A DNA stretch of 64,000 nt from Owenia fusiformis (taxonomy: Eukaryota > Annelida > Polychaeta > Sabellida > Oweniidae): assembly GCA_903813345.2 (NCBI GenBank), contig CAIIXF020000004.1:29885985-29949984 (forward strand), read 5' to 3'. Within the stretch, counting starts at the first letter, position 1. Every line of letters begins with the position of its first letter. A program made the translations under genes and the position numbers. Of this stretch, positions 7,901 through 64,000 are shown one piece after another. The notes below the pieces were generated by a model. The model made no database searches. It was not told the DNA's origin and worked only from the letters and a program-made list of their open reading frames with translations.

Positions 7901-7991
7901 CATGCACATCACATTTCATGTCAATTTAACATTATGTTATAAGAGACAAAAGAACTTCATGAAAAATACTAATATTTTGACTTAAAACTTC
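4975..7991. mobile_element. Giant inverted repeat, 1.2 kb arms around a 0.56 kb spacer
   Basis: The left arm (4975-6198) and right arm (6762-7991) are near-perfect reverse complements; the spacer is 6199-6761. Each arm contains a tRNA-like SINE head (ggtcctaggttcgattccc near 6920, its complement near 6030), a SINE body through ctatgctcgttagttagtc, and four to five tandem 46-bp units built on tttcatgtcaatttaacatc. No transposase-like frame was found. It could be a foldback transposon or a palindromic duplication of a SINE-bearing segment. The two 119-121 aa frames in the arms are shadows of the SINE. Confidence 0.9.
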
Positions 7992-13440: not shown

Positions 13441-13607
13441 AAAGCTTCTCCCAAGCTGATTAGCTAGTCTTAACTGGCAAGATGGAAGATGTAGGCGTTA
13501 CAATCGTGATTGGTTTCATCAACATTGTTGCGACAATTGTGGATTTTGTGTTGTATTTACCAGAATTGCTCACTGGGGGATCTGAGAAAAAGAGCTCTTC
13601 ACCATAT
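13441..13607 (+). CDS. ACSL4: ACSL3/4-type long-chain acyl-CoA synthetase, first coding exon (CDS from 13482)
   Basis: Gene: activates long-chain (in ACSL4, often polyunsaturated) fatty acids to acyl-CoA with ATP, on ER, lipid-droplet or peroxisomal membranes (family knowledge). This exon follows an acceptor (atgttgcag, ending 13440), has 41 bp of 5' untranslated sequence and an ATG at 13482 (caagATGG), and encodes 42 residues ending SEKKSSSPY before gtaagt at 13608. Residues 5-29 (VGVTIVIGFINIVATIVDF...) are a hydrophobic segment suited to an N-terminal membrane anchor, as in ACSL3/4. Phase 0. The eight exons in this window join to 326 codons plus one base, roughly half of a 670-720 residue family member. 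The promoter and earlier untranslated exon(s) were not identified. Confidence 0.85.
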
Positions 13608-21930: not shown

Positions 21931-24840
21931 CCTTTTGGACTATGGATTTTAAATGGCAATGAGCTGAGTTCCAGTTCATTGTATCTGCCAAGTGCTTATT
22001 TATTTACGGGTCTCTATTTATTTTCATTCAGTGGCATGATGTTCAAAGTCTGCACATCAGGATGTATTTTGTTTTTGTTTTCTTTATTCTTTTGTTTTGT
22101 GTTATTAGCATGTACTGAGTTGACACTCTATAGAAATCAAAGAAAATTAAATTTTCAGTCATATTTAAAAAAAAGAAATAGACTGGGAAAGAATGGAATC
22201 GTTAGGAAATAAAGTTAATAATAATTAGCACATACTGTAGTCAACTCTCTGTACAGAAAGGCTTGTCGTCAATACTCAGATTTAACAGAAAACCATGAAA
22301 TTCACTTTTTAAAGATTCTTTAAATAGAGGAAATAAGTTTGAAGCACACATATCTTCTGCATGATGGTCCTGGTTATGTTTCCATATTTTGGTTTTACTG
22401 TGTTGATTAATGCTGAAACAATTATTCTCATAAAAAGAAACATTCAATTTGAATGCAATCTTCGCCAGATTTAATTGATTGTAGCTCCATAGAAACAATT
22501 GTACAGCAAATATTGATTGCCAAAATTCAATAATTTGTGAGTACCCTAACTGAGAACATGTTTACAGTGTTCAGCAATGATGATCTTGTATTTTTCAGTA
22601 TAGCACACTGGTCTGATGAATAGGGCCGGGTAATGCCCATGTAAATAACAGTAGCAAAATGTTGTTTTGGAGGAACTATGGCTCTGACTATACGTGTTGG
22701 ATTCATAATTGAGTTATTTAGAAATCAGAGTTTAATTGGAAATAAATGATTCATTGGATTACAACTTAATTTTGGATTAAAATGAATTATCTCAAGAATT
22801 TGTAAAATATGACAATATTATAATAATAACAGCATTACATTATATATAAAGAACAATTGGATTAAAAAATAATGAGATCTCACCTTTAATGAATAATGAG
22901 ATAGAAATGTCATGGGGTCACATTCTAAAATGCAAAACAGAGTGGAAATTAGTGGAATAAAAATGCACATAGTGAAAACTCTAAACTGTAGTTCTTTGCC
23001 AGTTCATCAAATTCTAGAGAGAAATAACATGAAATAGTGTGAAATAGCATGAATAAGGATGACTGAAGTTCAATTATGTAAAGGCAAATACATGTGTTTA
23101 AGGGAAATTAAAAAACGTAACCAATTTAACAATGAATTTGTTCTTGATTTTCAATATTAAAATGTGGAAACAATATTAACATCTGTGACTGCTCAATGAT
23201 ATCATTTTAAAAGGAAACAGTTTTAAGCGAGTTGATCTTCAGGAGAAACAATATTTTAACTACAGAATGACAAAAGTTGAAACAGAGAAATATTATGTAA
23301 GTCAGTATTTTATATTTTTAACTTGGTGTTACCACATTATGTTAGTTATGGCCCAGATAATTCATAATTTGACATTGACATACAATGTCAGTATTAAACA
23401 TTTATCAACATTTGTAGTTTGCAAATGTTCAACCATATGATGTCTCATTTTGTCTTCTTGTAAGAAGGGGGGAAGTAGGGTGCTAGGTGTTGGGGTGGGG
23501 GCAGTAGGGTGCTGTTCAATGAATGATACAATGAATCTCACTTTGTGAATTTTAGAGAATCAATATTGTATATATACCAAAAATTAACTCCAAAAAGCTG
23601 ATACACTGTGAAGTACTATCTTAAGGTCAGTGTTATTTATGTTGATGTTTACTCCCAGATCACCTTCAAGTGAAAGCTTCTAGGATCACTTGATAGTTTT
23701 AGGCAGAAATATTCATCTAAGTTCTTAAGTAAGAAAATGGGTCAAAAACCTAAATCAAGTGAATTATTGTCTGAGCCAACTGTCAGTTTGTGAGGGAACT
23801 ATGTATAGATAAATAAGGGTCTCCGAGCTCTTCTCCCAGTTCAGCTACAGTATTAGATCTAATTTAAGGTAGACTAGATATCACTATAAATAGAACCAGC
23901 TGAGTGCCTGTAAGAAAAAAGCTCAGATGTTGTGTTGAAGTTGATTAATAGAAATATGTAATTTCTATTCCCCAAAGATTGAAATTCGCATTTGTAATCC
24001 AGTAATTCAGAGACAGGTTGACTTTTTGACAATAACTGAAAAATGAAAGCATGGATGGTTTTGATTTGGAAGTGTTAACAATTCTGAAAATTTGGGGAAT
24101 AATATATTACTATATATCAGCTTTTGAATTTAGTGTTGTGAGGGTGCGATTTTGCTATCTTTATCCAACCAAAACACTGGTATATTACCCCAAGTTGCTA
24201 TTATCGCTACCTTGAATGAGTAAATTTGACAATTTTTTATGATGTTATGATCATCAACTTCACAAAACCTGAAGTATTCAATTTCCAAACAGATTTTTAT
24301 TTATTTTTCTTAAATAACCTCCATAACCAGTAACTTTCAGATAAATACCAAACAATAAACATTTTATAGTAGGAAAAATCACTTCCAGTTCTTTGTAAAG
24401 AGAGACATCTATTTAAAACATAAAAGTTATTTTCACAATATGAATGCATTGAATGGCTAAATTCATCACTACCACCTGGAAAAATTTCAAGTAATGAAAA
24501 TCACTACCATGGTCAAATAAATGTTAAAGCCTGTATATAGGTGCCTCTTGTTGAACTTTTCAATGGGGTTTACTTCATCTTAGTTACAAAAATTTATAAA
24601 CTTTTTAAATAAATTTTTTAAATAAGGGTGTATTAATTTGTCTAATGGAAAAAATTTGGTGTACAAAGAATTTTCCTCAACACTGGAAACCTCAACACTT
24701 GAAACCTCAACACTGGGACTGAGACTGCCATCTTTTGCAGTCTTCCTATTTTTTATGTATTAATTGCTCTTTGATAATATGTATTGACAGTACACTAGAT
24801 TTCCCCATATGCCCAACGCAACTGTATGATAGTGACACCT
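21931..24840. other. ACSL intron 1, no recognisable features
   Basis: AT-rich unique sequence. A G-rich tract lies at 23466-23510. No conserved exon, transposon protein or long repeat was recognised. Open frames here (for example 21928-22212 +) show no recognisable domain. Confidence 0.5.
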
Positions 24841-24841
24841 T

Positions 24842-25005
24842 AAGGCCCAACAGACTAGTAATGAACCATCTGAAACACAATATTATGATAATGACACTTT
24901 TACTTGTAGGCCCACCAGACCAGTAATGAACTTTCTTAAACAAAGAATTATGATAATGACACTTATACATGTACTTATAGGCCCAACAGACTAGTAATGA
25001 ACCAT
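24842..25005 (+). repeat. Three-copy duplication of the ACSL exon 2 acceptor
   Basis: The exon 2 start (gcccaacagactagtaatga, true copy at 24981) is preceded by two similar copies at 24845 and 24910, each with the AG in place and separated by 65 and 71 bp. Between copies lies intronic sequence ending tatgataatgacactt. Each unit therefore contains about 25 bp of exon plus about 45 bp of intron. Confidence 0.85.
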
Positions 25006-25190
25006 CAGCACCATGGAGAGCTTTAGAGTCATTAGGGGAACTTGCAACAACAATCTCCCCTGACTGCAAAACGTTAGATGAACTATTCAAAAGAGCTGCT
25101 CAAATACACAGTGAATCTCCATGTTTAGGGACAAGGGAGGTACTAGCTGAAGAAGATGAAACTCAACCCAATGGGAAAGTTTTCAAAAAG
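24981..25190 (+). CDS. ACSL4: ACSL3/4 exon 2
   Basis: The acceptor is acttatag (ends 24980) and the donor aaaaag|gtaagc (25191). It is 210 bp, phase 0 to phase 0, encoding 70 residues: AQQTSNEPSAPWRALESLGE and onward through KTLDELFKRA and GTREVL to ETQPNGKVFKK. The last segment corresponds to the conserved MQPNGKVFKK of vertebrate ACSL4. Exon 1 precedes it after an 11.4 kb intron; exon 3 follows after 26.9 kb that hold the whole minus-strand receptor gene. Confidence 0.93.
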
Positions 25191-40289: not shown

Positions 40290-40372
40290 CTTCATTGGAG
40301 TTCCATCTTTTTTCCAGTAGAAGAAATTGTATGCATTGCCACTCTCTCTATTGAGTATGGTAACATTATGAC
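40290..40372 (-). CDS. mGluR-like gene, exon 6
   Basis: Acceptor aaattgcag (to 40373), donor atgaag|gtaata. It is 83 bp; the split codon g|gt gives Gly, then HNVTILNRESGNAYNFFYWK and KDGTPMK; phase 1 to 0. The pattern (G-x-[NY]-x-[VI]-x-N...YxYWK) matches the segment of metabotropic glutamate receptors near the end of the ligand-binding domain. The exon start is also the last copy of a 65-bp array extending upstream. Confidence 0.85.
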
Positions 40373-40790
40373 CTGCAATTTATAACATTTAAGGGAAGAT
40401 TTGCCACTCTCTCTATTGAGTATGGTAACATCATGACCTGCAATTTATAACATGTAAGGGAAGATTTGCCACTCTCTCTATTGAGTATGGTAACATCATG
40501 ACATGAATTTATAACATTTAAGGGAAGATTTGCCACTCTCTCTATTGAGTATGGTAACATTATGACCTGCAATTTATAACATTTAAGGGAAGATTTGCCA
40601 TTCTCTCTATTGAGTATGGTAACATCATGACCTGCAATTTATAACATGTAAGGGAAGATTTACCACTCTCTCTATTGAGTATGGTAAATCATGACCTGCA
40701 ATTTATAACATGTTAGGGAAGATTTGCCATTCTCTCTACTGTGTATTATGACCTGCATTTTATAACATGTAAGGGAAGATTTGCCTGACT
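40325..40790 (-). repeat. 65-bp array spanning the exon 6 acceptor, about 7 copies
   Basis: Each unit, on the minus strand, has about 28 bp of intron ending taaattgcag and about 37 bp of exon beginning gtcatgatgttaccatactc. The exon-contiguous copy (acceptor at 40373) is functional; further copies lie at 65-bp steps to 40790, with one acceptor mutated near 40502. The paralogous array at 49680-50168 has the same structure. Confidence 0.92.
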
Positions 40791-40990
40791 GTAACTATCT
40801 GCAGTGCCTAATAGTGACTAACATAATGATGTTAACATGAGCACATACTTCCAGTATGTTTTAAATTTCACTGTGTATGGCATAATTATTTGTTTTAATT
40901 TAGAACTGTATATAAATGTGTATACATTGTCCTGAACTGGGAAAGAATGATCTCTAAATCTTAATATGTGATAGATTCAAAAAATAGTAC

Positions 40991-41283
40991 CGTCAATATC
41001 CTTGAAAGACATATTTCCCAAAATGTCAGTGAAGTTTTTTCCAAATGCTGTGCCAAGTGCTTCACATACAGTTTTGGTTCCTTTCCCACATTTCTTTGTT
41101 AGTCTCTCAGTTGTAGCTATACTAAGAGCATATACTGCATGAATTGTCTGCAGTATGAAAGTGTCTTGGCTATAAGTTGGGAGTTCTGTTACAATCATGT
41201 CAGTTGTACAGTTGGTATTGCAATTGAACATAGCTTTGAAGTACATCTCAGTATGAACACTGCTGGCAGAAGGTTGACCAAAT
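40991..41283 (-). CDS. mGluR-like gene, exon 5
   Basis: Acceptor ctcccgcag (to 41284), donor gacg|gtacta. It is 293 bp, phase 2 to 1, encoding FGQPSASSVHTEMYFKAMFN, CNTNCTTDMI, TFILQTIHAVYALSIATTER and KCGKGTKTVCEALGTAFGKN. The 'A[VI][YH]A[LM]..A' helix followed by paired cysteines (C..G...VC) is characteristic of lobe 2 in class C receptors. Intron 5 (40373-40990) contains the exon 6 array. Confidence 0.88.
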
Positions 41284-41334
41284 CTGCGGGAGAATGAGAA
41301 GTCTATTGAAAGAAACTACATACATGTTTGTCCA

Positions 41335-44030
41335 ACCTAAGTTTTGACATGTTGGTATCAAATGCTTTGGAATTATCACCATATAATGCTATAGTTGTTG
41401 CCTACCTGAGTTTTTACATGTTTATATATCAAATGATTTGGCAGTTCCACCATATAAGGCTATAGTTGTTGCCTACCAAAGTTTTGACATGTGAATATAT
41501 CAAATGCTCTGACAGTATCACCACATAAGGATATAGTTGTTGCTTACCTGAGTTTTTACATGTGTATATATCAAATGATTTGGCAGTTCCACCATATAAG
41601 GCTATAGTTGCTGCCTACCAAAGTTTTGACATGTGAATATATCAAATGCTCTGACAGTATCACCATATAAGGCTATAGTTGTTGCCTACCTGAGTTTTGA
41701 CATATGTGTATCAAATGCTTTTACAGTATCCCCATATAAGGCTATAGTTGTTGCCTACCTGAGTTTTGACATATGTGTATCAAATGCTTTTACAGTATCA
41801 CCATATAAGGCTATAGTTGTTGCCTACCTGAGTTTTGACATAGTGTATCAAATGCTTCGCCAGTATCACCATATAAGGCTATAGTCGTTGCCTACCTAAG
41901 TTTTGACATATTTGTATTAAATGCTTTGACAGTTTCACCATATAAGGCTATAGTTGTTGCCTACCTGAGTTTTGACATATGTGTATCAAATGTCTCGACA
42001 GTATCACCATATAAGGCTATAGTTGTTGCCTACCTGAGTTTTGACATATGTGTATCAAATGCTTTGACAGTATCCCCATATAAGGCTATAGTTGTTGCCT
42101 ACCTGAGTTTTGACATATGTGTATCAAATGCTTTGACAGTATCACCATATAAGGCTTTAGTTGTTGCCTACCTGAGTTTTGACATATGTGTATCAAATGC
42201 TTTGACAGTATCACCATATAAGGCTATAGTTGTTGCCTACCTAAGTTTTGACATATGTGTATCAAATGCTTTTACAGTATCACCATATAAGGCTATAGTT
42301 GTTGCCTACCTAAGTTTTGACATAGTGTATCAAATGCTTTGACAGTATCCCCATATAAGGCTATAGTTGTTGCCTACCTGAGTTTTGACATATGTGTATC
42401 AAATGCTTTGACAGTATCCCCATATAAGGCTATAGTTGTTGCCTACCTGAGTTTTGACATATGTGTATCAAATGCTTTTACAGTATCCCCATATAAGGCT
42501 ATAGTCGTTGCCTACCTGAGTTTTGACATATGTGTATCAAATGCTTTGACAGTATCCCCATATAAGGCTATAGTTGTTGCCTACCTGAGTTTTGACATAT
42601 GTGTATCAAATGTCTCGACAGTATCACCATATAAGGCTATAGTCGTTGCCTACCTAAGTTTTGACATATGTGTATTAAATGCTTTGACAGTATCACCATA
42701 TAAGGCTATAGTTGTTGCCTACCTAAGTTTTGACATATGTGTATCAAATGTCTCGACAGTATCCCCATATAAGGCTATAGTCGTTGCCTACCTAAGTTTT
42801 GACATATGTGTATTAAATGCTTTGACAGTATCCCCATATAAGGCTATAGTTGTTGCCTACCTAAGTTTTGACATATGTGTATCAAATGTCTTGACAGTAT
42901 CACCATATAAGGCTATAGTCGTTGCCTACCTAAGTTTTGACATATGTGTATCAAATGCTTTGACAGTATCACCATATAAGGCTTTAGTTGTTGCCTACCT
43001 GAGTTTTGACATATGTGTATCAAATGCTTTGACAGTATCACCATATAAGGCTATAGTTGTTGCCTACCTAAGTTTTGACATATGTGTATCAAATGCTTTT
43101 ACAGTATCACCATATAAGGCTATAGTTGTTGCCTACCTAAGTTTTGACATAGTGTATCAAATGCTTTGACAGTATCCCCATATAAGGCTATAGTTGTTGC
43201 CTACCTGAGTTTTGACATATGTGTATCAAATGCTTTGACAGTATCCCCATATAAGGCTATAGTTGTTGCCTACCTGAGTTTTGACATATGTGTATCAAAT
43301 GCTTTTACAGTATCCCCATATAAGGCTATAGTCGTTGCCTACCTGAGTTTTGACATATGTGTATCAAATGCTTTGACAGTATCCCCATATAAGGCTATAG
43401 TTGTTGCCTACCTGAGTTTTGACATATGTGTATCAAATGTCTCGACAGTATCACCATATAAGGCTATAGTTGTTGCCTACCTGAGTTTTGACATATGTGC
43501 ATCAAATGCTTTGACAGTATCACCATATAAGGCTATAATTGTTGCCTACCTGAGTTTTGACATAGTGTATCAAATGCTTTGACAGTATCACCATATAAGG
43601 CTATAGTTGTTGCCTACCTGAGTTTTGACATATGTGTATCAAATGCTTTGACAGTATCACCATATAAGGCTATAGTTGTTGCCTACCTGAGTTTTGACAT
43701 ATGTGTATCAAATGCTTTGACAGTATCACCATATAAGGCTATAGTTGTTGCCTACCTGAGTTTTGACATATGTGTATCAAATGCTTTGACAGTATCCCCA
43801 TATAAGGCTATAGTTGTTGCCTACCTGAGTTTTGACATATGTGTATCAAATGCTTTGACAGTATCCCCATATAAGGCTATAGTTGTTGCCTACCTGAGTT
43901 TTGACATATGTGTATCAAATGCTTTGACAGTATCCCCATATAAGGCTATAGTTGTTGCCTACCTGAGTTTTGACATATGTGTATCAAATGCTTTGACAGT
44001 ATCCCCATATAAGGCTATTGTTATTGATCC
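41335..44030 (-). repeat. 69-bp array spanning the exon 4 donor, about 39 copies
   Basis: On the minus strand each unit holds about 55 bp of the exon 4 end (tatagccttatatggggata, then catatgtcaaaactcag) and about 14 bp of intron (gtaggcaacaact). The exon-contiguous donor is at 43962; the array then fills practically all of intron 4. Leftmost units (41335-41640) are most diverged. Unit length 69 leaves long open frames of a 23-residue periodic peptide on the + strand (to 276 codons), which are not genes. In the host frame, reading past the first donor gives CTC AGG TAG, a stop. Confidence 0.95.
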
Positions 44031-44128
44031 AGCTGCTGCTTTTTCAAAGCCATCAACCATGAACTCTGTTTTTCCCCATGTCTCTGTCCCAATGAATACC
44101 AGACCTGTAACGTTGAATTGCCATTTTA
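43963..44128 (-). CDS. mGluR-like gene, exon 4
   Basis: It encodes (phase 1 to 2) KWQFNVTGLVFIGTETWGKT, EFMVDGFEKAAAGSITIALY and GDTVKAFDTHMSKL up to donor ctcag|gtaggc. 'F.W[VI]G...W' and 'AGxITI' match lobe 2 of class C receptors. The start is inferred: the acceptor acaag|ta at 44129 keeps the phase (giving Leu) but has a weak pyrimidine tract; ataatag at 44149 would break the frame with the preceding exon. Confidence 0.8.
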
Positions 44129-44329
44129 CTTGTGCCATTTTGACCAACTATTATGTTAAAACATTAAGACATTAACCATATTGTTTCTCTCTTCAAACCT
44201 TGGAAAACAAACACTTGTTCTTTAAACAACATTAAACATCATAAAAAGACGAACTGTTTTTTAAAGGTAACCCCTTTAAATCTACAATTTCACAGTTGTA
44301 CATTTTGATTATTTCACAATTTTACTCAC

Positions 44330-44474
44330 GTTTGGCACTTATATCTTTCATAAACTTCTGCTTAGCTGCCAGTAATGGTTTAACGATTCCACCTCCCAAA
44401 ACTAAAACTATATCTGACTTCAAAGTACTTTCCATGATTTCTAAAATGATGTCCTCTTCGTTTGACTTAGTTTT
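44330..44474 (-). CDS. mGluR-like gene, exon 3
   Basis: Acceptor cattttag (to 44475), donor aaac|gtgagt. It is 145 bp, phase 0 to 1, encoding KTKSNEEDIILEIMESTLKS, DIVLVLGGGIVKPLLAAK and QKFMKDISAK. 'SDIVLVLGGG' fits the beta-strand that in mGluRs reads ARVVVLFMRS, followed by a helix. Confidence 0.82.
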
Positions 44475-44603
44475 CTAAAATGCAGGAATAATTCTTACTA
44501 AACAGTAATTCCTCAACATTGACTCTATTTTGCTTGAAAATAGTTGTAGGTTTAATGTAATTCATAGAATGGTGAGTAAAATTGAATAAACAAATGCACC
44601 TAC

Positions 44604-44780
44604 ATTAATAGTATGTGTGTCTGATTTCAGAATAAATGTGGATGATACACATCCTCCCTCTTTTTCAAATGTTTCTCTGAACAGCCTTGCCAAGTCTCTG
44701 GGATAAGTTAACTCATCTTCAATGACAATGTGCACATTCATCCAGCCATGACTAATCAACAGGGCTGCAAGAGCAGGGCC
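44604..44780 (-). CDS. mGluR-like gene, exon 2
   Basis: Acceptor atttgtag (to 44781). The donor is taken as aat|gtaggt (44603), because this gives phase 0 and joins exon 3 in frame; a competing aatgtag|gtgcat site four bases downstream does not. It encodes GPALAALLISHGWMNVHIVI, EDELTYPRDLARLFRETFEK and EGGCVSSTFILKSDTHTIN. The 'GW..V.[IV]....Y.......F...' pattern is the start of lobe 2. Confidence 0.82.
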
Positions 44781-45051
44781 CTACAAATGGAAACATTCAA
44801 AGGGTTTATTCTCGAAATGCATTCCTGTATTTGTTCATTTTCAACGCTCTTGTAATTCATGTAATTCACCTTTAATATAGTAATGAGGCGGAGCAATGCC
44901 TCTTGAAAATATGGTTCAAACTCAAAAAATAAAAAGCTCCATTAATTTCATTTTTACTTTTTTACCTCATGAGAATATCCTATTTTATGAAAAATTAAAA
45001 AGATTTCAAAATTTAGTTGTGTTTGAAATATAATGAATAGTGAAAGCTGAC

Positions 45052-45588
45052 CTGCATGTTATCTGATGGTAAAGTCCTCACAAAATATGGGAACCTAGTT
45101 CTGTCACTTAACTGTGGGCTTGTAGCCTGTGGTGCTACTAATACTGTCTTTGTAGTCTTCAAATATTCAGCAACTTTCATAGTTTTGTCACTGTTAGCAG
45201 AACCAACAAATCCAACAACTCGATCAGGGTTGATAAGGGCACCAGTTGAATCATTGACCAACAAAATACCTCCATAAAATTCTTTAGTTAAGTTCAGACC
45301 ACGATCAGCAGATGAACAGTCATCCATAATAATTGCTCCAATTTTGATACCAAGATCTGCAAATTGACCTTTATGCTTGTTAATTTCTGTTAGAGCCAGG
45401 TCAACTGCTTCCATATATTGGTAGCCATATATGTATCTTATGCCTTTACATCCTCCCCATGTAAGGCCCAGCATTACCACAATATACAAATCACCATCTA
45501 TTACAACATAGGTAGGATTAGGTTGGGGTGGGTCAGCAATGGTCATGGACAAAATTGTGACCAGTGAAGTGAGTACGTCTCTCCTCAT
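45052..45588 (-). CDS. mGluR-like Venus-flytrap receptor, exon 1 (predicted secreted, 552 aa overall)
   Basis: Starts at ATG 45588 with a hydrophobic leader (RRDVLTSLVTILSMTIA) suited to a signal peptide, then GDLYIVVMLGLTWGGC, YQYMEAVDLALTEINK, GAIIMDDCSSADRGLNLTKE, PDRVVGFVGSANSDKTMKVA and SPQLSDRTRFPYFVRTLPSD, up to donor atgcag|gtcagc (45051). This follows lobe 1 of metabotropic glutamate receptors: GDL...G..., EA..FA...IN, ILD.CS, V.GVIG, LSD..R..YF.RT.P.D. The eight exons join in a consistent phase to 552 codons plus stop (1659 bp). By family the protein should bind a small amino-acid-like ligand, but with no 7TM it would act outside the cell or as a decoy (inference). The whole gene lies inside ACSL intron 2 on the opposite strand. 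Confidence 0.85.
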
Positions 45589-45600
45589 GATTTCTGACAA

Positions 45601-46400
45601 CTTCCTTTAATAAGAGAAATGAATGATTAATCATATCAGCCTTTTTGCACAGATCATTTATAGTGATTAATGTGGCATGTTTGTATAAATATATACATAG
45701 AAATATTGTGTTTTCAGTTATTATTGCGAACTCACCAATATTTAAGACACTTTCCATTTTTGCAGTGTCATTTTTATGAAATTTATCAAAATATTACATT
45801 TAAGATATGTGAATATCATTTTTATAGAAATTTTTATTTTGAATATACCCAACTTACTGTTCAACAAATGAAATTTTTTTGTTTATTCTCTAAAATATGC
45901 AAATCATTTTGAATCGTACTATCAAAAATCAGATACTGTATCTTACCTATTTATACTATATTTATAGAAAACATCTGGAGATGAAGCAACTTCTCTGATT
46001 TTCTTAACACTCTAGCCAGGATATGACGAGTGAACATACAATAAAATGAACATTTTAATATGTTTGATGTACAACAACTGACACATGTATCTATGCCATA
46101 TATGGAGGTTATGATACTCCCACTTTGAATAAACACAAGGGGCTCACGCTTCACTGGTCATATAGGATGAAAGGAGCACGTAGGTTATCGCAAACAATTT
46201 CAAACGATTCTAACTTGAATTATGAATATTTTCTGATCATGAAGTTCAACATGAGTGTATTTTTAAGATCTATTCATTATCTTCAAGAAAAGAATATATA
46301 ATGATAATTTAGTTAATCAAACCTTAGTGATATTGAAGGGGCATTGGACCAATCAACATACTTTTTCAAAATTGTTGACCTAATTTTCAACAAAAATGCA
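45601..46400. other. 5' flank of the mGluR-like gene
   Basis: AT-rich. The promoter is expected here on the minus strand, but no convincing TATA or initiator could be singled out. No upstream exon recognised; short open frames lack domain similarity. Confidence 0.4.
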
Positions 46401-49640: not shown

Positions 49641-49723
49641 CTTTATTGGAGTTCCATCTTCTTTCCAGTAGAAGAAATTGTATGCATTGCCACTCTCTCT
49701 ATTTAGTATGGTAACATCATGAC
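49641..49723 (-). CDS. Partial receptor duplicate, exon 6'
   Basis: 83 bp, acceptor aaattgcag (to 49724), donor ataaag|gtaaaa; reads HDVTILNRESGNAYNFFYWK and EDGTPIK, differing from exon 6 at three residues. Upstream of it on this strand (50170-52123) no Venus-flytrap exon exists, so the copy lacks exons 1-5 and is either a pseudogene or alternative 3' sequence of something outside the window. Confidence 0.75.
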
Positions 49724-50168
49724 CTGCAATTTATAACATGTAAGGGAAGATTTGCCACTCTCTCTATTGAGTATGGTAACATCATGACCTGCAATTTATA
49801 ACATGTAAGGGAAGATTTGCCACTCTCTCTATTTAGTATGGTAACATCTTGACCTGCAATTTATAACATGTTAGGGAAGATTTGCCACTCTCTCTATTTA
49901 GTATGGTAACATCATGACCTGCAATTTATAACATTTAAGGGAAGATTTGCCACTCTCTCTATTGAGTATGGTAACATCATGACCTGCAATTTATAACATT
50001 TAAGGGAAGATTTGCCACTCTCTCTATTTAGTATGGTAACATCATGACCTGCAATTTATAACATTTAAGGGAAGATTTGCCACTCTCTCTATTGAGTATG
50101 GTAACATCATGACCTGCAATTTATAACATGTAAGGGAAGATTTGCCACTCTCTCTATTGAGTATGGTA
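49680..50168 (-). repeat. 65-bp array spanning the exon 6' acceptor, 7 copies
   Basis: Same unit as at 40325-40790 (intronic ataaattgcag plus the exon 6 start). Acceptor copies lie at 65-bp steps from 49724 to 50114. Variants tattgagtatgg / tatttagtatgg alternate irregularly. Presence in both paralogues means the array, or the tendency to form it, is as old as the duplication. Confidence 0.92.
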
Positions 50169-51200: not shown

Positions 51201-52336
<1,136 letters not shown>

Positions 52337-53459: not shown

Positions 53460-54402
53460 GTCTATGTTTAATAACATTGTAGTTGTGACCACGTATGCAA
53501 CTCTCGGAGAAGATGCTGTATTATAACTTATGTTTGCTTACATTGTAGTTGTGGCCCTGTATGGGACTCTCTGAGAAGATGCTGTATTAGAACTTATGTT
53601 TGCTTACATTGTAGTTGTGACTCTCGGAGAAGATGCTGTATTATAACTTATGTTTGCTTACATTGTAGTTGTGGCCCTGTATGTGACTCTCGAAGATGCT
53701 GTATTATAACTTATGTTTGCTTACATTGTAGTTGTGACTCTCGGAAAAGATGCTATATTTTAACTTATGTTTGCTTATATTGTAGTTGTGGCCCTGTATG
53801 GGACTCTCTGAGAAGATGCTGTATTAGAACTTATGTTTGCTTACATTGTAGTTTTGACTCTCGGAAAAGATGCTATATTTTAACTTATGTTTGCTTATAT
53901 TGTAGTTGTGATCCTGTATGTGACTCTCGGAGAAGATGCTATATTATAACTTATGTTTGCTTACATTGTAGTTGTGACCCTGTATGTGACTCTCGGAGAA
54001 GATGTTATATTATAACTTATGTTTGCTTACATTGTAGTTGTGACCCTGTATGCGACACACGCAGAAGATGCTATATTATAACTTATGTTTGCTTACATTG
54101 TAGTTGTGACCCTGTATGCGACACACGCAGAAGATGCTATATTATAACTTATGTTTGCTTACATTGTAGTTGTGACCCTGTATGCGACACACGCAGAAGA
54201 TGCTATATTATAACTTATGTTTGCTTACATTGTAGTTGTGACCCTGTATGCGACACACGCAGAAGATGCTATATTATAACTTATGTTTGCTTACATTGTA
54301 GTTGTGACCCTGTATGCGACACACGCAGAAGATGCTATATTATAACTTATGTTTGCTTACATTGTAGTTGTGACCCTGTATGCTACACTTGGAGAAGATG
54401 CC
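53460..54402 (+). repeat. 66-bp array spanning the ACSL exon 4 acceptor, about 15 copies
   Basis: Units contain the acceptor (tttgcttacattgtag), about 34 bp of exon start (ttgtgaccctgtatgcgaca + cacgcagaagatgc) and about 18 bp of intron. Acceptors occur from 53482 to 54367. The five units before the true exon are homogeneous and share 'gcgacacacgcag' where the exon has 'gctacacttggag', so they spread from one variant; upstream units are more diverged and of unequal length. Confidence 0.93.
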
Positions 54403-54474
54403 ATAATCCATGGGGTCAATGAATCAGAAGTTACACATCTAATAACTAGTAATGAACTCATAGAAAAATTTAAG
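54368..54474 (+). CDS. ACSL4: ACSL3/4 exon 4
   Basis: Acceptor acattgtag (ends 54367), donor tttaag|gttagt. It is 107 bp, phase 1 to 0: V then [20 protein letters not shown] and [15 protein letters not shown]. It matches the [14 protein letters not shown][ST]E segment of ACSL3/4. Its acceptor is the last of about 15 tandem copies. Confidence 0.95.
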
Positions 54475-54974: not shown

Positions 54975-55730
54975 ACATGTGAAACTTTTTTTTTAAATTT
55001 CAAAAAGTGGTTTTTGATAGACTTTTTGTTCCAAAATTTGTGAATTTATTTAAAACCAACTTTTAGAGGCCACATTTATCTTCTAATTAGCCATAATTCA
55101 TACCAATGCATAGCATTCATCCTCCCATGTTTTTTGCCGAAAAAATTAAGAAAATCGGTTGATAAACAAGCGAGAAATGAACTTATCAGTGCATGAAAAT
55201 GGTTCTGAGAAAAATGCATTTCAAAATTTTAGTTCTCATAGAAACCAATGGTACAATGATATCTAAAACATAATTTATTCTTCCTTTTAACCTGGTTAGA
55301 CAATCAACATTGTTTTTTATGAAAGTCTAGCATATTTAGAAAAGATTGACATCGAAAAAAAAATTAAATTTTTTTCAAAAAGTTTTTGTTACCTTAGTGA
55401 CATCACTAATGTTTCAAAATATTTTTGATAAGCTAAAACATTGAAGTGGCCCATTAAATATGACATTTTATTATTGAAATAGTGTGTCTTTTGTTCAATC
55501 TTTGCATTGGTGTTAAAAAGATAATCTTTTTTGAAATGCATTAAGAAATATTTGATGATTAAGAAATTTCAAATTTTTTTGAAAAATGGCGGGAAATTTG
55601 AATATTTGAGAAATGAAATGCTCACAACTTTTTTTTCAAAAAAAAATTTTTGTTCAAAAATCTCTAAAATCACTTTTTAAGTCCTGACAAATAGTAAATG
55701 AATGATAAAAAAATATTTTCAAATTTTAGA
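54975..55730. mobile_element. Dispersed repeat, inverted partner of 50520-51200
   Basis: Contains the reverse complements of the 50.5 kb copy in the same order (atgttttttgccgaaaaaat; ggtacaatgatatctaaaac; atggcgggaaatttgaatat). It ends about 50 bp before ACSL exon 5. Confidence 0.8.
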
Positions 55731-55929: not shown

Positions 55930-56019
55930 GTAAGTACATTAAAAAGCTTTCAAATTTCATAATAATAGACAAACTCGATAGCAAATGTCACTGCCTTACT
56001 TGATTTCTGTTATTTGCAG

Positions 56020-56100
56020 AGAGTGTAGTACCACAGAAGCCAACCAGGGATGACCTTGCAGTTATAATGTATACGAGTGGTTCCACTGGAATGCCTAAAG
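56020..56100 (+). CDS. ACSL4: ACSL3/4 exon 6 (AMP-binding motif)
   Basis: Acceptor ttatttgcag (ends 56019), donor taaag|gttggt. It is 81 bp: K (split codon), SVVPQKPTRDDLAVIMYTSG, STGMPK. YTSGSTGMPKG is the phosphate-binding signature of the ANL (acyl/aryl-CoA synthetase) superfamily; its last Gly is encoded across the junction with exon 7. Phase 1 to 1. Confidence 0.95.
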
Positions 56101-56199: not shown

Positions 56200-59100
56200 T
56201 ATAATATGAAATACTTTCAAGTGTTAGGATTGGTCATGGTAACTTGTGTTTTATTGTTGGACAGATTCATGTTTCTGATAATGCAATAGATTTCAGCAGA
56301 CAGCAGTGTGGTTGCTAGGCAATTGTATTTATATTATATGAATTTATTTCTAGGTGTTGTGATTAGCCATGGCAACTTGATGTGTGGCATGGTAGTTGTA
56401 TTTATATTATATGAATTTATTTCCAGGTGTTATGATTAGCCATGGCAACTTGATGTGTGGCATGGCAATTGTATTTATATTATATGAATTTATTTCCAGG
56501 TGTTATGATTAGCCATGGCAACCTGATGTGTGGCATGGTAGTTGTATTTATATTATATGAATTTATTTCCAGGTGTTATGATCAGCCATGGCAACTTGAT
56601 GTGTGGTATGGCAATTGTTTTTATATTATATGAATTTATTTCTAGGTGTTATGATTAGCCATGGCAACTTGATGTGTGGCATGGTAGTTGTATTTATATT
56701 ATATGAATTTATTTCCAGGTGTTATGATTAGCCATGGCAACCTGATGTGTGGCATGGCAATTGTATTTATATTATATGAATTTATTTCCAGGTGTTATGA
56801 TTAGCCATGGCAACCTGATGTGTGGCATGGTAGTTGTATTTATATTATATGAATTTATTTCCAGGTGTTATGATTAGCCATGGCAACCTGATGTGTGGCA
56901 TGGTAATTGTTTTTATATTATATGAATTTATTTCTAGGTGTTATGATTAGCCATGGCAACTTGATGTGTGGCATGGCAATTGTATTTATATTATATGAAT
57001 TTATTTCCAGGTGTAATGATTAGCCATGGCAACCTGATGTGTGGCATGGCAATTGTATTTATATTATATGAATTTATTTCTAGGTGTTATGATTAGCCAT
57101 GGCAACCTGATGTGTGGCATGGTAGTTGTATTTATATTATATGAATTTATTTCCAGGTGTTATGATTAGCCATGGCAACTTGATGTGTGGCATGGTAGTT
57201 GTATTTATATTATATGAATTTATTTCCAGGTGTTATGATTAGCCATGGCAACCTGATGTGTGGCATGGCAATTGTATTTATATTATATGAATTTATTTCC
57301 AGGTGTTATGATTAGCCATGGCAACCTGATGTGTGGCATGGTAGTTGTATTTATATTATATGAATTTATTTCCAGGTGTTATGATTAGCCATGGCAACCT
57401 GATGTGTGGCATGGTAATTGTTTTTATATTATATGAATTTATTTCTAGGTGTTATGATTAGCCATGGCAACTTGATGTGTGGCATGGCAATTGTATTTAT
57501 ATTATATGAATTTATTTCTAGGTGTTGTGATTAGCCATGGCAACTTGATGTGTGGCATGGTAGTTGTATTTATATTATATGAATTTATTTCCAGGTGTTA
57601 TGATTAGCCATGGCAACTTGATGTGTGGCATGGCAATTGTATTTATATTGTATGAATTTATTTCCAGGTGTTATGATTAGCCATGGCAACTTGATGTGTG
57701 GCATGGCAATTGTATTTATATTGTATGAATTTATTTCCAGGTGTTATGATTAGCCATGGCAACCTGATGTGGGGCATGGTAATTGTTTTTATATTATATG
57801 AATTTATTTCTAGGTGTTATGATTAGCCATGGCAACTTGATGTGTGGCATGGTAGTTGTATTTATATTATATGAATTTATTTCTAGGTGTTATGATTAGC
57901 CATGGCAACCTGATGTGGGGCATGGCAATTGTTTTTATATTATATGAATTTATTTCTAGGTGTTATGATTAGCCATGGCAACTTGATGTGTGGCATGGTA
58001 GTTGTATTTATATTATATGAATTTATTTCTAGGTGTTATGATCAGCCATGGCAACTTGATGTGTGGCATGGCAATTGTATTTATATTATATGAATTTATT
58101 TCCAGGTGTTATGATTAGCTATGGCAACCTGATGTGTGGCATGGTAGTTGTATTTATATTATATGAATTTATTTCTAGGTGTTATGATCAGCCATGGCAA
58201 CTTGATGTGTGGCATGGTAGTTGTATTTATATTATATGAATTTATTTCTAGGTGTTATGATTAGCTATGGCAACCTGATGTGTGGCATGGTAGTTGTATT
58301 TATATTATATGAATTTATTTCCAGGTGTTATGATTAGCCATGGCAACTTGATGTGTGGCATGGCAATTGTATTTATATTATATGAATTTATTTCCAGGTG
58401 TTATGATTAGCTATGGCAACCTGATGTGTGGCATGGTAGTTGTATTTATATTATATGAATTTATTTCCAGGTGTTATGATTAGCCATGGCAACTTGATGT
58501 GTGGCATGGCAATTGTATTTATATTATATGAATTTATTTCTAGGTGTTATGATTAGCCATGGCAACCTGATGTGTGGCATGGTAGTTGTATTTATATTAT
58601 ATGAATTTATTTCCAGGTGTTATGATTAGCCATGGCAACTTGATGTGTGGCATGGCAATTGTATTTATATTGAATGAATTTATTTCCAGGTGTTATGATT
58701 AGCCATGGCAACTTGATGTGTGGCATGGCAATTGTATTTATATTGTATGAATTTATTTCCAGGTGTTATGATTAGCCATGGCAACCTGATGTGGGGCATG
58801 GCAATTGTTTTTATATTATATGAATTTATTTCTAGGTGTTATGATTAGCCATGGCAACTTGATGTGTGGTATGGTAGTTGTATTTATATTATATGAATTT
58901 ATTTCTAGGTGTTATGATCAGCCATGGCAACTTGATGTGTGGCATGGTAGTTGTATTTATATTATATGAATTTATTTCTAGGTGTTATGATTAGCCATGG
59001 CAACCTGATGTGTGGCATGGTAGTTGTATTTATATTATATGAATTTATTTCTAGGTGTTATGATTAGCCATGGCAACTTGATGTGTGGCATGGTAGTTGT

Positions 59101-59531
59101 ATTTATATTATATGAATTTATTTCTAGGTGTTATGATTAGCCATGGCAACCTGATGTGTGGCATGGTAGTTGTATTTATATTATATGAATTTATTTCTAG
59201 GTGTTATGATTAGCCATGGCAACCTGATGTGTGGCATGGTAGTTGTATTTATATTATATGAATTTATTTCTAGGTGTTATGATCAGCCATGGCAACTTGA
59301 TGTGTGGCATGGTAGTTGTATTTATATTATATGAATTTATTTCTAGGTGTTATGATTAGCCATGGCAACTTGATGTGTGGCATGGTAGTTGTATTTATAT
59401 TATATGAATTTATTTCTAGGTGTTATGATCAGCCATGGCAACTTGATGTGTGGCATGGTAGTTGTATTTATATTATATGAATTTATTTCTAGGTGTTATG
59501 ATTAGCCATGGCAACCTGATGTGTGGCATGG
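56200..59531 (+). repeat. 73-bp array spanning the ACSL exon 7 acceptor, 44 copies
   Basis: Units hold the acceptor (tgaatttatttctag or tccag), 39 bp of exon start (gtgttatgattagccatggc, aacctgatgtgtggcatgg) and 34 bp of intron (ttgtatttatattatatgaa + tttatttctag). Copies run from 56354 to 59493, exactly 43 intervals of 73 bp, so no length variants survive. Substitutions (c/t in ttt(c/t)(c/t)ag, ggcatggtag/ggcatggcaa, cttg/cctg) occur in patterned blocks. A much older copy is visible at 56220-56260 (gtgttaggattggtcatggt). The array is almost the whole of intron 6. Confidence 0.96.
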
Positions 59532-59562
59532 CTGGACAATGTTCAAGAATTCCAAAACTAGG
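59493..59562 (+). CDS. ACSL4: ACSL3/4 exon 7
   Basis: Acceptor tttatttctag (ends 59492), donor ctagg|gtaagt. It is 70 bp, phase 1 to 2: G (split), VMISHGNLMCGMAGQCSRIP, KL. It corresponds to KGVMM.H.NL..GM.GQC.RIP.LG of ACSL4. The exon is intact only at the last copy of the 73-bp array. Intron 7 (59563-59902) has C-rich runs (ccctccccctacccccta) and nothing else recognised. Confidence 0.95.
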
Positions 59563-59902: not shown

Positions 59903-59964
59903 ACAAATGGCAGACACCTATATTGGATACCTTCCTCTTGCTCATGTCTTAGAATTAAGCGCAG
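59903..59964 (+). CDS. ACSL4: ACSL3/4 exon 8
   Basis: Acceptor ttttattttccag (ends 59902), donor gcgcag|gtatga (59965). It is 62 bp, phase 2 to 1: G (split), QMADTYIGYLPLAHVLELSA. It matches the DTYIGYLPLAHVLEL.A motif that follows RIP.LG in ACSL3/4. Its donor is the first of about 35 tandem copies. Using any later donor would read A-G-M-I-stop, so the first must be used for an intact protein. Confidence 0.95.
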
Positions 59965-62503
59965 GTATGATATAATACATACATTAAATTGGATACCTTC
60001 CTCTTGCTCATGTCTTAGAACTAAGCGCAGGTATGATATAATACATACATTAAATTGGATACCTTCCTCTTGCTCATGTCTTAGAATTAAGCGCAGGTAT
60101 GATATAATACATACATTAAATGGGATACCTTCCTCTTGCTCATGTCTTAGAATTAAGCGCAGGTATGATATAATACATACATTAAATTGGATACCTTCCT
60201 CTTGCTCATGTCTTAGAATTAAGCGCAGGTATGGTATAATACATACATTAAATTGGATACCTTCCTCTTGCTCATGTCTTAGAATTAAGCGCAGGTATGA
60301 TATAATACATACATTAAATTGGATACCTTCCTCTTGCTCATATCTTAGAATTAAGCGCAGGTATGATATAATACATACATTAAATGGGATACCTTCCTCT
60401 TGCTCATGTCTTAGAATTAAGCGCAGGTATGATATAATACATACATTAAATTGGATACCTTCCTCTTGCTCATGTCTTAGAATTAAGTGCAGGTATGATA
60501 TAATACATACATTAAATTGGATACCTTCCTCTTGCTCATGTCTTAGAATTAAGCGCAGGTATGGTATAATACATACATTAAATTGGATAGCTTCCTCTTG
60601 CTCATGTCTTAGAATTAGCGCAGGTATGATATAATACATACATCAAATTGGATACCTTCCTCTTGCTCATGTCTTAGAATTAAGCGCAGGTATGGTATAA
60701 TACATACATTAAATTGGATACCTTCCTCTTGCTCATGTCTTAGAATTAAGCGCAGGTATGATATAATACATACATTAAATTGGATACCTTCCTCTTGCTC
60801 ATGTCTTAGAATTAAGCGCAGGTATGATATAATACATACATTAAATGGGATACCTTCCTCTTGCTCATGTCTTAGAATTAAGCGCAGGTATGATATAATA
60901 CATACATTAAATTGGATACCTTCCTCTTGCTCATGTCTTAGAATTAAGCGCAGGTATGGTATAATACATACATTAAATTGGATACCTTCCTCTTGCTCAT
61001 GTCTTAGAATTAAGCGCAGGTATGATATAATACATACATTAAATTGGATACCTTCCTCTTGCTCATGTCTTAGAATTAAGCGCAGGTATGATATAATACA
61101 TACATTAAATGGGATACCTTCCTCTTGCTCATGTCTTAGAATTAAGCGCAGGTATGATATAATACATACATTAAATTGGATACCTTCCTCTTGCTCATGT
61201 CTTAGAATTAAGCGCAGGTATGATATAATACATACATTAAATTGGATACCTTCCTCTTGCTCATGTCTTAGAATTAAGCGCAGGTATGGTATAATACATA
61301 CATTAAATTGGATACCTTCCTCTTGCTCATGTCTTAGAATTAAGCGCAGGTATGATATAATACATACATCAAATTGGATACCTTCCTCTTGCTCATGTCT
61401 TAGAATTAAGCGCAGGTATGGTATAATACATACATTAAATTGGATACCTTCCTCTTGCTCATATCTTAGAATTAAGCGCAGGTATGGTATAATACATATA
61501 TTAAATTGGATACCTTCCTCTTGCTCATGTCTTAGAATTAAGCGCAGGTATGGTATAATACATACATTAAATTGGATACCTTCCTCTTGCTCATGTCTTA
61601 GAATTAAGCGCAGGTATGATATAATACATACATTAAATTGGATACCTTCCTCTTGCTCATGTCTTAGAATTAAGCGCAGGTATGGTATAATACATACATT
61701 AAATTGGATACCTTCCTCTTGCTCATGTCTTAGAATTAAGCGCCGGTATGATATAATACATACATTAAATTGGATACCTTCCTCTTGCTCATGTCTTAGA
61801 ACTAAGCGCAGGTATGATATAATACATACATTAAATTGGATACTTTCCTCTTGCTCATGTCTTAGAATTAAGCGCAGGTATGATATAATACGTACATTAA
61901 ATTGGATATCTTCCTCTTGCTCATGTCTTAGAATTAAGCGAAGGTATGATATAAAACATACATTAAATTGGATACCTTCCTCTTGCTCATGTCTTAGAAT
62001 TAAGCGCAGGTATGGTATAATACATACATTAAATTGGATACCTTCCTCTTGAAAATAGATGGCGTTCATAGAACAGTGACTTGTACATTTTTGAGCGAGG
62101 AAAGATCCACTATATTGAGAATATAAACATTCGTAGTGCAAATTTTCTGAGCAGTTGTGGATTATAAACGTTCTTAGCACAAAACCAAACCATTGGATTA
62201 CGAGATAATCATGTGTACGGCGCAAAAACCGATCACAAACTTTTTTCATGAAAATTCTTTGAGCACTGAAAAACAACATACATTAAATGGGATACCTTCC
62301 TCTTGCTCATGTCTTAGAATTAAGCGCCGGTATGATATAATACATACATTAAATTGGATACCTTCCTCTTGCTCATGTCTTAGAACTAAGCGCAGGTATG
62401 ATATAAAACATACATTAAATTGGATACCTTCCTCTTGCTCATGTTTTAGAATTAAGCGCAGGTCTGGTATAATACATACATTAAATTGGATACCTTCCTC
62501 TTG
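59922..62503 (+). repeat. 66-bp array spanning the ACSL exon 8 donor, about 35 copies
   Basis: Each unit holds 43 bp of the exon end (attggataccttcctcttgc, tcatgtcttagaattaagcg, cag) and 23 bp of intron (gtatgatataatacatacat, taa). Donors lie at 66-bp steps from 59964 to 62009 (one 1-bp deletion near 60614), and three more at 62330-62465, two with altered sites (gcgccg|gt, gcgcag|gtctgg). The block is interrupted at 62052-62273 by a duplicated LINE 5' end. Because 66 is divisible by three, both strands carry long open frames (to 554 codons on the minus strand) encoding only a 22-residue periodic peptide; these are not genes. Confidence 0.96.
62052..62279 (+). mobile_element. Captured copy of a LINE 5' end inside the exon 8 array
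   Basis: The sequence aaaatagatggcgttcatag through gagcactgaaaaacaa (about 222 bp) is repeated exactly at 62504-62727 at a period of 452 bp. After the first copy the exon 8 array resumes for three units; after the second the LINE continues into ORF1. It is therefore a tandem duplication of [LINE 5' end + array units], made after the LINE inserted. Confidence 0.9.
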
Positions 62504-63760
62504 AAAATAGATGGCGTTCATAGAACAGTGACTTGTACATTTTTGAGCGAGGAAAGATCCACTATATTGAGAATATAAACATTCGTAGTGCAAATTTTCT
62601 GAGCAGTTGTGGATTATAAACGTTCTTAGCACAAAACCAAACCATTGGATTACGAGATAATCATGTGTACGGCGCAAAAACCGATCACAAACTTTTTTCA
62701 TGAAAATTCTTTGAGCACTGAAAAACAAGATGGCGACCGACAACCAGTGAAAAGGAGAGCTAAAGATGATGAACACGGAGACAGAAAATCTTCAGGAAAG
62801 TATAGTGAGTACGAGGGTGACTTAGATGAAGATCACTATGATGATGCCTTCGCTGAGACTACTCTTGAGAAAGAGAAACACGTAGAAACTACTGTTGGTA
62901 AGCCAAGCAGTTCTGAAACCCCAGTAATGTTGAAATCTGATAATACTGCAGCACCGGTAACCCAAGGCTGGATGATGAACTATATGGACCAGTTGATGCG
63001 ATCTATTGATCACAAAATGGAACAAAGTATTGATAAGGCAGTGACTAAAGCTCTGGAAAAGTCGAATGCTAGACTCTCGAATATTGAAAGTGAGAATACT
63101 AAACTGAAGACTGAAGTCCTCAACCTAACAACAAAATTGGATAAATTAGTATTAGACGTTAACCACAATGCCCAATACTCTAGAAAAAACACGGTGAGAT
63201 TCCTCGGAATCCCTGAAAAAGAAACAAAGGCTGATAGAGACAATGAAAACTGTAATGAATCCATTTGTGAAGCCATCTTGCCATACATGCCTGGTGTTAT
63301 CACCTCAGATGACATAGAGGTCAGTCACAGACTAAGGCCTTACAAACAGGATGATAGATATCCGAGACCTGTAATCGCTAAACTTAAATGGAGGGGCGGA
63401 AAGGATAATATCATATCGAACAGGAAAAAGCTTAAGGGGTCGAACATTATCGTGTATGAGGACCTGAGTCCCATGAACAGGAAGTTACTACAAGAGGTCA
63501 AAGAGCACCCAGATATCGAACAACAATGGTCAACAAACGGGAAAATCCTTGGAAGGCTAAGGAGTGGGGACATTGTCCTATTTAACGTTGGCAGCGAGGT
63601 CAGTGATACGATTACACAGCACCGTCGTAGCAGGGCCAGTGCACCTGACGCAAATACCAGCAGACCACAAACTTCTGCCCATCGCGGCGGAGCCAGAGGA
63701 AGACAAAGGACTTAAACTAGCTTGTCAGAATGGTTTATAAATGACTTTGTCGTCAAAAAC
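62504..63760 (+). mobile_element. L1/Tx1-type LINE 5' region in ACSL intron 8
   Basis: It starts where array sequence breaks at ttcctcttg|aaaatagatg, has a 5' untranslated region of about 160 bp and an intact ORF1. No ORF2 begins in the remaining 285 bp, so either ORF2 lies outside the window or the element is 3'-deleted or rearranged. Same orientation as ACSL. Confidence 0.75.
62663..63715 (+). CDS. LINE ORF1 protein, about 350 aa
   Basis: RNA-binding chaperone of an L1/Tx1-type retrotransposon (family role: forms the ribonucleoprotein with ORF2p). ATG at 62663 (MCTAQKPITNFFHENSLSTE). A charged N-terminal region (KRRAKDDEHGDRKSSGKYSE) is followed by a coiled coil around residues 110-170 (NARLSNIESENTKLKTEVLN), then an RRM beginning QYSRKNTVRFLGIPEKE and a C-terminal domain with DDIEVSHRLRP, PVIAKLKWRG and IIVYEDLSP, and a basic tail (HRGGARGRQRT). 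The frame is uninterrupted, suggesting a fairly recent insertion. An upstream in-frame TTG at 62645 is not preferred. Confidence 0.85.
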   Translation: MCTAQKPITNFFHENSLSTEKQDGDRQPVKRRAKDDEHGDRKSSGKYSEYEGDLDEDHYDDAFAETTLEKEKHVETTVGKPSSSETPVMLKSDNTAAPVTQGWMMNYMDQLMRSIDHKMEQSIDKAVTKALEKSNARLSNIESENTKLKTEVLNLTTKLDKLVLDVNHNAQYSRKNTVRFLGIPEKETKADRDNENCNESICEAILPYMPGVITSDDIEVSHRLRPYKQDDRYPRPVIAKLKWRGGKDNIISNRKKLKGSNIIVYEDLSPMNRKLLQEVKEHPDIEQQWSTNGKILGRLRSGDIVLFNVGSEVSDTITQHRRSRASAPDANTSRPQTSAHRGGARGRQRT

Positions 63761-64000
63761 TTTCACGCGAGTGGTAGTATGAATGTTTTCTATTACCATA
63801 TGCATGATACATGTACATACATTCATGCATTTCATTGACTGATTTAATTGAGTCGATCCAATGGTTTCATCTAGTGCCTATTAATTTTTTTACTTTTCTA
63901 GTACTGCATATACTGAACATTCTTGTGGTGTCTAAATATAAGTATTCAAAGTGTGCATCAACAGAGAACATATCTTTTTCATTACAGCTGATCTGGTAGG
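63716..64000. other. End of window; possible ACSL exon 9 acceptor
   Basis: After ORF1 the sequence is AT-rich. At 63975-63987 there is a good acceptor (ctttttcattacag); the following ctgatctggtagg, joined to the phase 1 end of exon 8, reads A-D-L-V-G. This is compatible with, but does not clearly match, the family sequence after VLELSA. Too short to decide. Confidence 0.3.

Follow-up and report, generated by a model that had tools for sequence, protein, structure and literature searches.

Tandem arrays of splice-site copies at exon–intron borders of an ACSL gene in the annelid Owenia fusiformis, a probable case of mirage-type minisatellites

The closest described systems, as far as the accessible portions of the respective papers go, are the mirage minisatellites of amphioxus, reported for Adh3 and for the globin genes BflGb6 and BflGb9, with BflGb6 haplotypes carrying 6 and 3 units; the mechanism of mirage origin was called unclear there (PMC3087553), and TnC and PGBD5 were added by another study (PMC3902484). 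In the human genome, minisatellites at the exon–intron boundaries of duplicated genes carry splice sites; 27 intron modifications were retained after manual check, with units averaging 30 bp and 4 copies, and some of them create new introns (PMC2812944). Arrays of dual-specific splice sites have been described for the polyubiquitin gene UBC (PMC10809524), intronic minisatellites near alternative exons for C. elegans (PMC4039745), and large intronic minisatellites for the earthworm metallothionein gene, with silent extra exon copies in one clone (PMC12783039). The Owenia assembly comprises 505.8 Mb, of which 43% are repeats, and RNA-seq was used for its annotation; the sections of its description available to us mention no border-spanning repeats (PMC9977687). 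Among the matches listed in searches of an open-licence library, several of them capped, no border arrays from annelids appeared.

Here, a stretch of 64,000 nucleotides of the Owenia fusiformis genome (hereafter, the window; contig CAIIXF020000004.1, forward strand) was analysed, for which an earlier reading of the sequence (the original prediction) had reported serial 5′ splice sites behind exon 8 of an ACSL gene. A search for AG/GT-bounded exons in the window and in 80 kb of downstream sequence recovered 16 coding exons at 13482-88644 (window coordinates extended downstream), whose translation equals the protein P0121 plus stop; the label exon 8 is correct, this being the eighth of the 16. 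The joined exons keep an open frame with an AMP-binding domain match (4.3e-48), and in a search allowing full-length proteins the best match was the Owenia fusiformis protein P0121 itself (706 aa, 98% identical), the other 119 matches listed (of 6022) showing at most 61% identity. The name ACSL is taken from annotated homologs. P0121 is an annotation, possibly resting in part on homology, and each repeated exon piece occurs in its 706 residues as a single copy. The coding exons up to exon 8 are as follows.

13482..13607, plus strand: ACSL coding exon 1, without array; matches P0121
24981..25190, plus strand: exon 2; joined exons give P0121
52124..52301, plus strand: exon 3; joined exons give P0121
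54368..54474, plus strand: exon 4; joined exons give P0121
55785..55929, plus strand: exon 5, without array
56020..56100, plus strand: exon 6, without array
59493..59562, plus strand: exon 7; joined exons give P0121
59903..59964, plus strand: exon 8, 62 nt; joined exons give P0121

ACSL intron lengths range widely, with just 90 nt in intron 5 (55930-56019) versus 26.9 kb in intron 2. Exons 3 and 4 with their arrays are flanked by long inverted repeats at 50546-51187 and 54998-55642 (318 and 286 nt, 94% complementary), by which back-splicing could be favoured. Separately, two arrays of 39-bp units at 5039-5930 and 7030-7929 look reverse complementary to one another by eye, like the arms of a large inverted repeat.

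The functional donor of exon 8 lies after 59964 (donor 1), and the repeated unit of 66 bp consists of the last 43 nt of exon 8 and the first 23 nt of intron 8. The array and the element that divides it are laid out along the sequence in this way.

59922..62051, plus strand: exon 8 donor array, first block, 32 copies of the 66-bp unit (Tandem Repeats Finder (TRF): 32.3 copies, 97% matches)
62052..62275, plus strand: 224-nt first copy of a LINE-like 5′ piece inside the array, part of a 452-bp duplication
62276..62503, plus strand: second in-window block of the array, 3.5 copies, inside the 452-bp duplication
62504..64000, continuing to 69044 past the window, plus strand: LINE-like insertion splitting the array, with an A-rich end, an 11-12-bp target-site repeat and an RVT_1 ORF
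69045-75925, beyond the window, plus strand: continuation of the array, 104 further copies

The original prediction of about 35 serial donors at 59922..62503 is borne out by the unit listing, in which 35 in-window copies (59964-62461) have a GT donor, but it understated the array, which holds about 139 copies in all, the in-window donors being its first quarter (an ungapped scan allowing up to 14 mismatches counted 138 copies). The context GCGCAG|GTAT had been claimed for all later copies; the exact GCGCAGGTAT is present in 30 of the 35, versus 0.04 expected in shuffles, while the remaining five deviate (GTGCAG once, GCGCCG twice, GCGAAG once and GTCT once). The row of copies is not continuous, being interrupted by the 224-nt LINE-like piece. 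The reading frame reaches TAA 8 nt beyond donor 1, at the place predicted. From position -43 to +23, 8 of the 34 in-window decoys (the copies other than donor 1) are identical to donor 1 and 19 are one base apart, and the differences among copies are structured, units 11 apart being identical in 9 of 20 pairs.

The LINE-like element between the array halves is 6.5 kb long, ends in an A-run and has ACCTTCCTCTTG on each side. Its 1165-aa ORF contains an RVT_1 match (9.3e-31) and an endonuclease domain, while for its 361-aa ORF1-like frame neither a homolog (E 0.001) nor a Pfam match over the cut-off was found. Because the element sits between the halves, the copies, about 139 in all, probably formed a single block until it inserted. 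The 452-bp duplication (61824-62275 and 62276-62727; 443 of 452 positions identical), which carries the last 3.5 in-window copies, is later than the insertion, the LINE 5′ piece having been copied along with array units. Other reverse transcriptase fragments lie on the minus strand at 30879-32934 (RVT_1 1.3e-11, zf-RVT 3.5e-6).

The exon 8 array had been treated alone, and it was missed that it is one of a series in ACSL: 8 of the 30 splice sites of this gene lie within arrays, namely the acceptors of exons 2, 3, 4, 7, 9 and 12 and the donors of exons 8 and 11. The arrays are internally homogeneous, with TRF matches of 97% for exon 8, 95% for exon 7 and 97% for exon 12. An mGluR-like gene nested in ACSL intron 2, whose frame matches ANF_receptor (6.9e-38) and the mGluR7 entry of the PDB (2.5e-25), has arrays at 2 of its 11 splice sites, the exon d donor and the exon f acceptor. 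Besides the exon 8 array, the following features were read in the two genes.

24839..25006, plus strand: array of 3 acceptors at exon 2 (~65-bp unit), the functional one before 24981
51239..52185, plus strand: array of 11 acceptors at exon 3 (75/93-bp units), the functional one before 52124
53463..54405, plus strand: array of 15 acceptors at exon 4 (spaced 54-66 bp), the functional one before 54368
56323..59531, plus strand: array of 44 acceptors at exon 7 (73-bp unit), the functional one before 59493
Beyond the window: exon 9 acceptor array, 68 bp x 3.1
Beyond the window: exon 11 donor array, 80 bp x 6.4
Beyond the window: exon 12 acceptor array, 80 bp x 65
40290..45606, minus strand: mGluR-like gene in ACSL intron 2, six exons read, 465-aa open frame
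45606-45052, 44780-44604, 44474-44330, 44104-43963, 41283-40991 and 40372-40290, minus strand: mGluR-like exons
41335..44026, minus strand: mGluR-like exon d donor array, 69-bp unit, 39 pattern-matched donors; functional donor after 43963
40336..40785, minus strand: acceptor array at mGluR-like exon f, ~7 copies of a 65-bp unit, of which 6 have AG; the functional one before 40372
49687..50168 (about 49594-50168 with the exon), minus strand: second exon f copy with a 65-bp acceptor array

No other exons of a receptor copy were found around the second exon f among the ORFs read. Further downstream lies an MFS-like gene whose exons were read by eye, no reference protein being used; one of its exon donors, at 120484, is overlain by about 67 units of a 32-bp array. 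MFS_1 matches were obtained for two of the five pieces of this gene (1.3e-14 and 3.8e-4) and none for the other three. We take the gene to be monocarboxylate-transporter-like. A 58-bp array at 114490-117025 (extended coordinates) also starts at the donor of an MFS-like exon and holds GTGCAG|GTGAGG, perhaps representing another border array. The border-spanning arrays thus number 10 in two genes, on both strands, and 1 in a third, and hit 5′ and 3′ boundaries alike. Among the five ACSL arrays in the window, no sequence longer than 7-8 nt is common to the units (plus strand).

At all eight ACSL arrays the copy used in P0121 is the one at the exon side, a position that is given by the annotated protein in ACSL and by the open frame in the other genes. 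For exon 8, P0121 fits donor 1 joined to exon 9 with one copy of the repeated piece, which agrees with the predicted use of the first donor, the support being indirect through an annotated protein. Every decoy tested in ten arrays (306 of 306) leads to a premature stop, distributed as follows.

ACSL arrays in the window: exon 2, 2/2; exon 3, 10/10; exon 4, 14/14; exon 7, 43/43
Exon 8: 129/129 pattern-matched decoys, of ~138
Exons 9 and 11: exon 9, 1/1; exon 11, 7/7 (including two from a relic close by)
Exon 12: 57/57 pattern-matched decoys, of ~64
mGluR-like gene: exon d, 38/38; exon f, 5/5

Because the copies within one array share their stop and are not independent, these 306 stops amount to about ten events. 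The chance of a stop in a random intron stretch is 0.39 for 23 nt and 0.50 for 30 nt, making a stop per array unsurprising, and a stop-free array might have been taken for an exon.

Selection on the decoy splice motifs was rejected, as they drift like the remainder of the unit. The exon 8 donor columns show 13 variants in 1096 (1.2%) versus 113 in 7809 (1.45%) for the rest of the unit (137 of 138 copies, position +6 left out), the exon d donor columns 10 in 240 versus 58 in 1830 (30 of 38 decoys), and the exon 7 acceptor region 25 in 882 versus 49 in 1680 for the exonic part (42 of 43 decoys). In all six arrays included in this test (exons 8, 7, 4, 3, d and f, with exons 2, 9, 11 and 12 left out), copies diverge more from the functional one the further away they lie, and in four of the arrays the trend goes beyond 1 in 20 permutations. 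The values of rho, with the number of 2000 permutations reaching them, were 0.43 (15) for exon 8, 0.04 (793) for exon 7, 0.77 (2) for exon 4, 0.37 (314) for exon 3, 0.56 (0) for exon d and 0.78 (80) for exon f, the gradient being absent at exon 7 and weak at exon 3. When divergence is taken from the consensus instead, the more uniform end is the exon side for exons 8, 7 and d, and the opposite holds for exon 4. No clear polarity is seen in four intron-only arrays (rho against position 0.00, 0.22, -0.05 and -0.17), although one of them, with 7 units, shows a gradient from one end copy (rho 0.90). The exon-side copy may be the template of the array.

We therefore consider it very probable that these are mirage-type minisatellites, in which a segment spanning the exon–intron border was tandemly duplicated and expanded to a long array within the intron, and that the decoys are neutral passengers rather than selected U1 traps. 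A border-spanning duplication would be tolerated because the exon-side copy leaves the exon and its splice site intact, the surplus copies becoming intron, and it could expand by unequal exchange or slippage. Selection would hold the exon-side copy while distal copies decay. On the splicing side, the spliceosome would pair the innermost acceptor and donor of an exon, that is, by exon definition, and occasional use of a decoy would be cleared by nonsense-mediated decay.

A rather unlikely alternative, which nevertheless deserves some weight, is that arrays are a general product of an array-rich region and meet exons merely by chance. Array content is 30% of 144 kb here versus 7.6% of 60 kb in six other stretches (10 kb each, at arbitrarily chosen positions), and intron-only arrays of similar period lie nearby. 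Counted by bases, 5 of 15 ACSL sites in the window fall in arrays versus 4.8 expected (not significant), an enrichment being absent at this level because arrays fill a third of the window (32%); the terminal-unit version of the same test gave 5 sites versus 0.87 expected (0.3% of shifts). An array begins as a single copy, and therefore each array (75 TRF rows, merged by hand to arrays with a period of at least 20, 31 of them in the window) was collapsed to one unit and the founders were placed at random, in tests that are all post hoc and set in an unusually array-rich region. For the window, 26 sites and 30 arrays were considered, the copied exon f array being excluded, and 7 of these arrays contain a site versus 0.97 expected (35 of 1,000,000 simulations). 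Over the ACSL and mGluR-like genes (88.7 kb; the two exon 8 halves counted as one, a relic and a copied array excluded), the count was 10 of 36 versus 1.70 expected (3 of 1,000,000 simulations), and for arrays with at least 5 copies and a period of at least 50 it was 8 of 13 versus 0.76 (0 of 1,000,000). The stretch read after the idea had formed (76-88.7 kb) gave 3 of 6 arrays versus 0.89 expected (4%), or 3 of 3 versus 0.50 (0.5%) among arrays of at least 3 copies. All of these founder counts speak against chance encounters.

It is conceivable, and we put it forward tentatively, that some process preferentially seeds or preserves arrays at exon borders as a regular feature of Owenia genes, for example transcription- or splicing-coupled duplication, or preservation of arrays by their essential edge copy. 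The six 10-kb stretches elsewhere contain 8 arrays, of which one has an above-chance splice-like motif (acceptor p 0.035); in the same motif test the exon 12 array, known to span a border, went unnoticed (p 0.34), and the top rank for donors fell to an array at 52697 that spans none (p 0.005). The apparent association of arrays with splice sites deserves further study. If borders were indeed favoured in this way, Owenia genes would serve as a natural experiment on how the spliceosome picks the innermost among more than 100 near-identical sites.

It is very improbable that the exon 8 donor array was selected as a U1 snRNP platform against premature cleavage and polyadenylation in a long intron. 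GT is retained in 35 of 35 pattern-matched in-window copies and in 103 of 104 copies past the insertion, and the in-window array contains 34 ATTAAA motifs (13.2 per kb, against 0.70 per kb in the remainder of the window). However, the ATTAAA copies are part of the unit itself, AATAAA is absent from the array, and the exon 8 donor columns are no better conserved than others, their 8-column window ranking 31 of 59. Acceptors are not bound by U1. The earlier suggestion that decoys sequester U1 snRNP cannot be the general reason, since in the two genes that were read best it is acceptors that 7 of the 10 arrays multiply, making acceptor arrays more numerous than donor arrays, and selection for a U1 sink is unsupported because decoy donor columns vary as much as the remaining unit. 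In the MFS-like array, moreover, the strict CAG|GTAAGC is kept in only 30 of about 67 units.

The innermost pairing of acceptor and donor across the exon fits all arrays. The original prediction had set the exon 8 array against the expectations of exon definition, a view that is unsupported as stated: in the arrays found, the functional copy lies at the exon side, as expected if the 3′ and 5′ sites closest to each other across the exon are paired. Since so many decoys equal donor 1 over the 66-nt unit or differ from it by one base, the information that distinguishes donor 1 lies further upstream (the true acceptor is 62 nt upstream) or in timing. Exon length alone cannot explain the choice of donor 1 over donor 2, because exons formed with the nearest decoy would be ordinary in size (exon 8, 128 nt; exon 7, 143 nt; exon 4, 173 nt; exon 3, 271 nt; exon 2, 281 nt). 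We attach even less credence to the idea that RNA structure between copies hides the decoys and leaves only the edge copy accessible. At 37 °C, the 9-mer of donor 1 was computed to be 7-9 times more accessible than decoys (11 and 13 of the 34 decoys), and the functional acceptor of exon 4 2.1-fold; however, at 15 °C the ratio for donor 1 was 1.6 (9-mer) or 0.2 (5-mer), the functional acceptors of exons 3 and 7 had ratios of 1.15 and 0.63 at 37 °C (15 of 43 exon 7 decoys), and the exon 8 array folded no better than shuffles (z 0.38). Masking by structure was rejected for this inconsistency between arrays and temperatures. Least probable of all is an assembly or annotation artefact: long arrays are hard to assemble, but the differences between copies are structured, as seen in the units 11 apart, a LINE with a target-site repeat sits inside the array, and the flanking gene, ACSL, stays open over 706 codons.

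The arrays are a real and striking case of a known kind, probably neutral, and new for annelids within the open-licence literature searched, which would extend mirages from chordates to annelids. One gene can carry hundreds of decoy sites, offering raw material for intron growth and gain, and the contrast between donor 1 and its decoys makes a clean natural test of exon definition versus intron-proximal choice. In such genes, split-read aligners may misplace junctions (PMC10632439).

Compared with known systems, as far as the accessible parts of the sources describe them, the Owenia arrays most resemble the amphioxus mirages, in which the unit likewise spans a 5′ or 3′ exon–intron border, the functional copy lies at the exon edge and the copies are homogenised. 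Regular mRNA was reported there (PMC3087553, PMC3902484); in Owenia, the annotated P0121 carries single copies. On the other hand, amphioxus is a cephalochordate and Owenia an annelid, with up to about 139 copies versus the 6 and 3 units of BflGb6, and in Owenia 8 of 30 splice sites of one gene, together with neighbouring genes on both strands, are affected. The human border repeats are often associated with alternative transcripts, whereas the Owenia arrays are far longer and use of a decoy would lead to a stop; because the human repeats often alter splicing (PMC2812944), neutrality is not a given. The UBC array (PMC10809524) is similarly a tandem series of AGGT sites within a gene, but its repeat is coding, with isoforms of variable unit number, whereas the Owenia unit carries intron sequence with a stop, and all 129 exon 8 decoys tested end in a stop rather than in the coding, in-frame inclusion that characterises dual-specific sites. 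The earthworm metallothionein gene, also from an annelid, shares the large intronic minisatellites, and border-spanning units are not described in the available part of that paper. Finally, the model of Rogers (cited in PMC3087553), in which tandem duplication of an AGGT-containing segment gives rise to a new intron, has the border-spanning duplication as raw material in common with Owenia, where, in contrast, the duplicates lengthen an existing intron.
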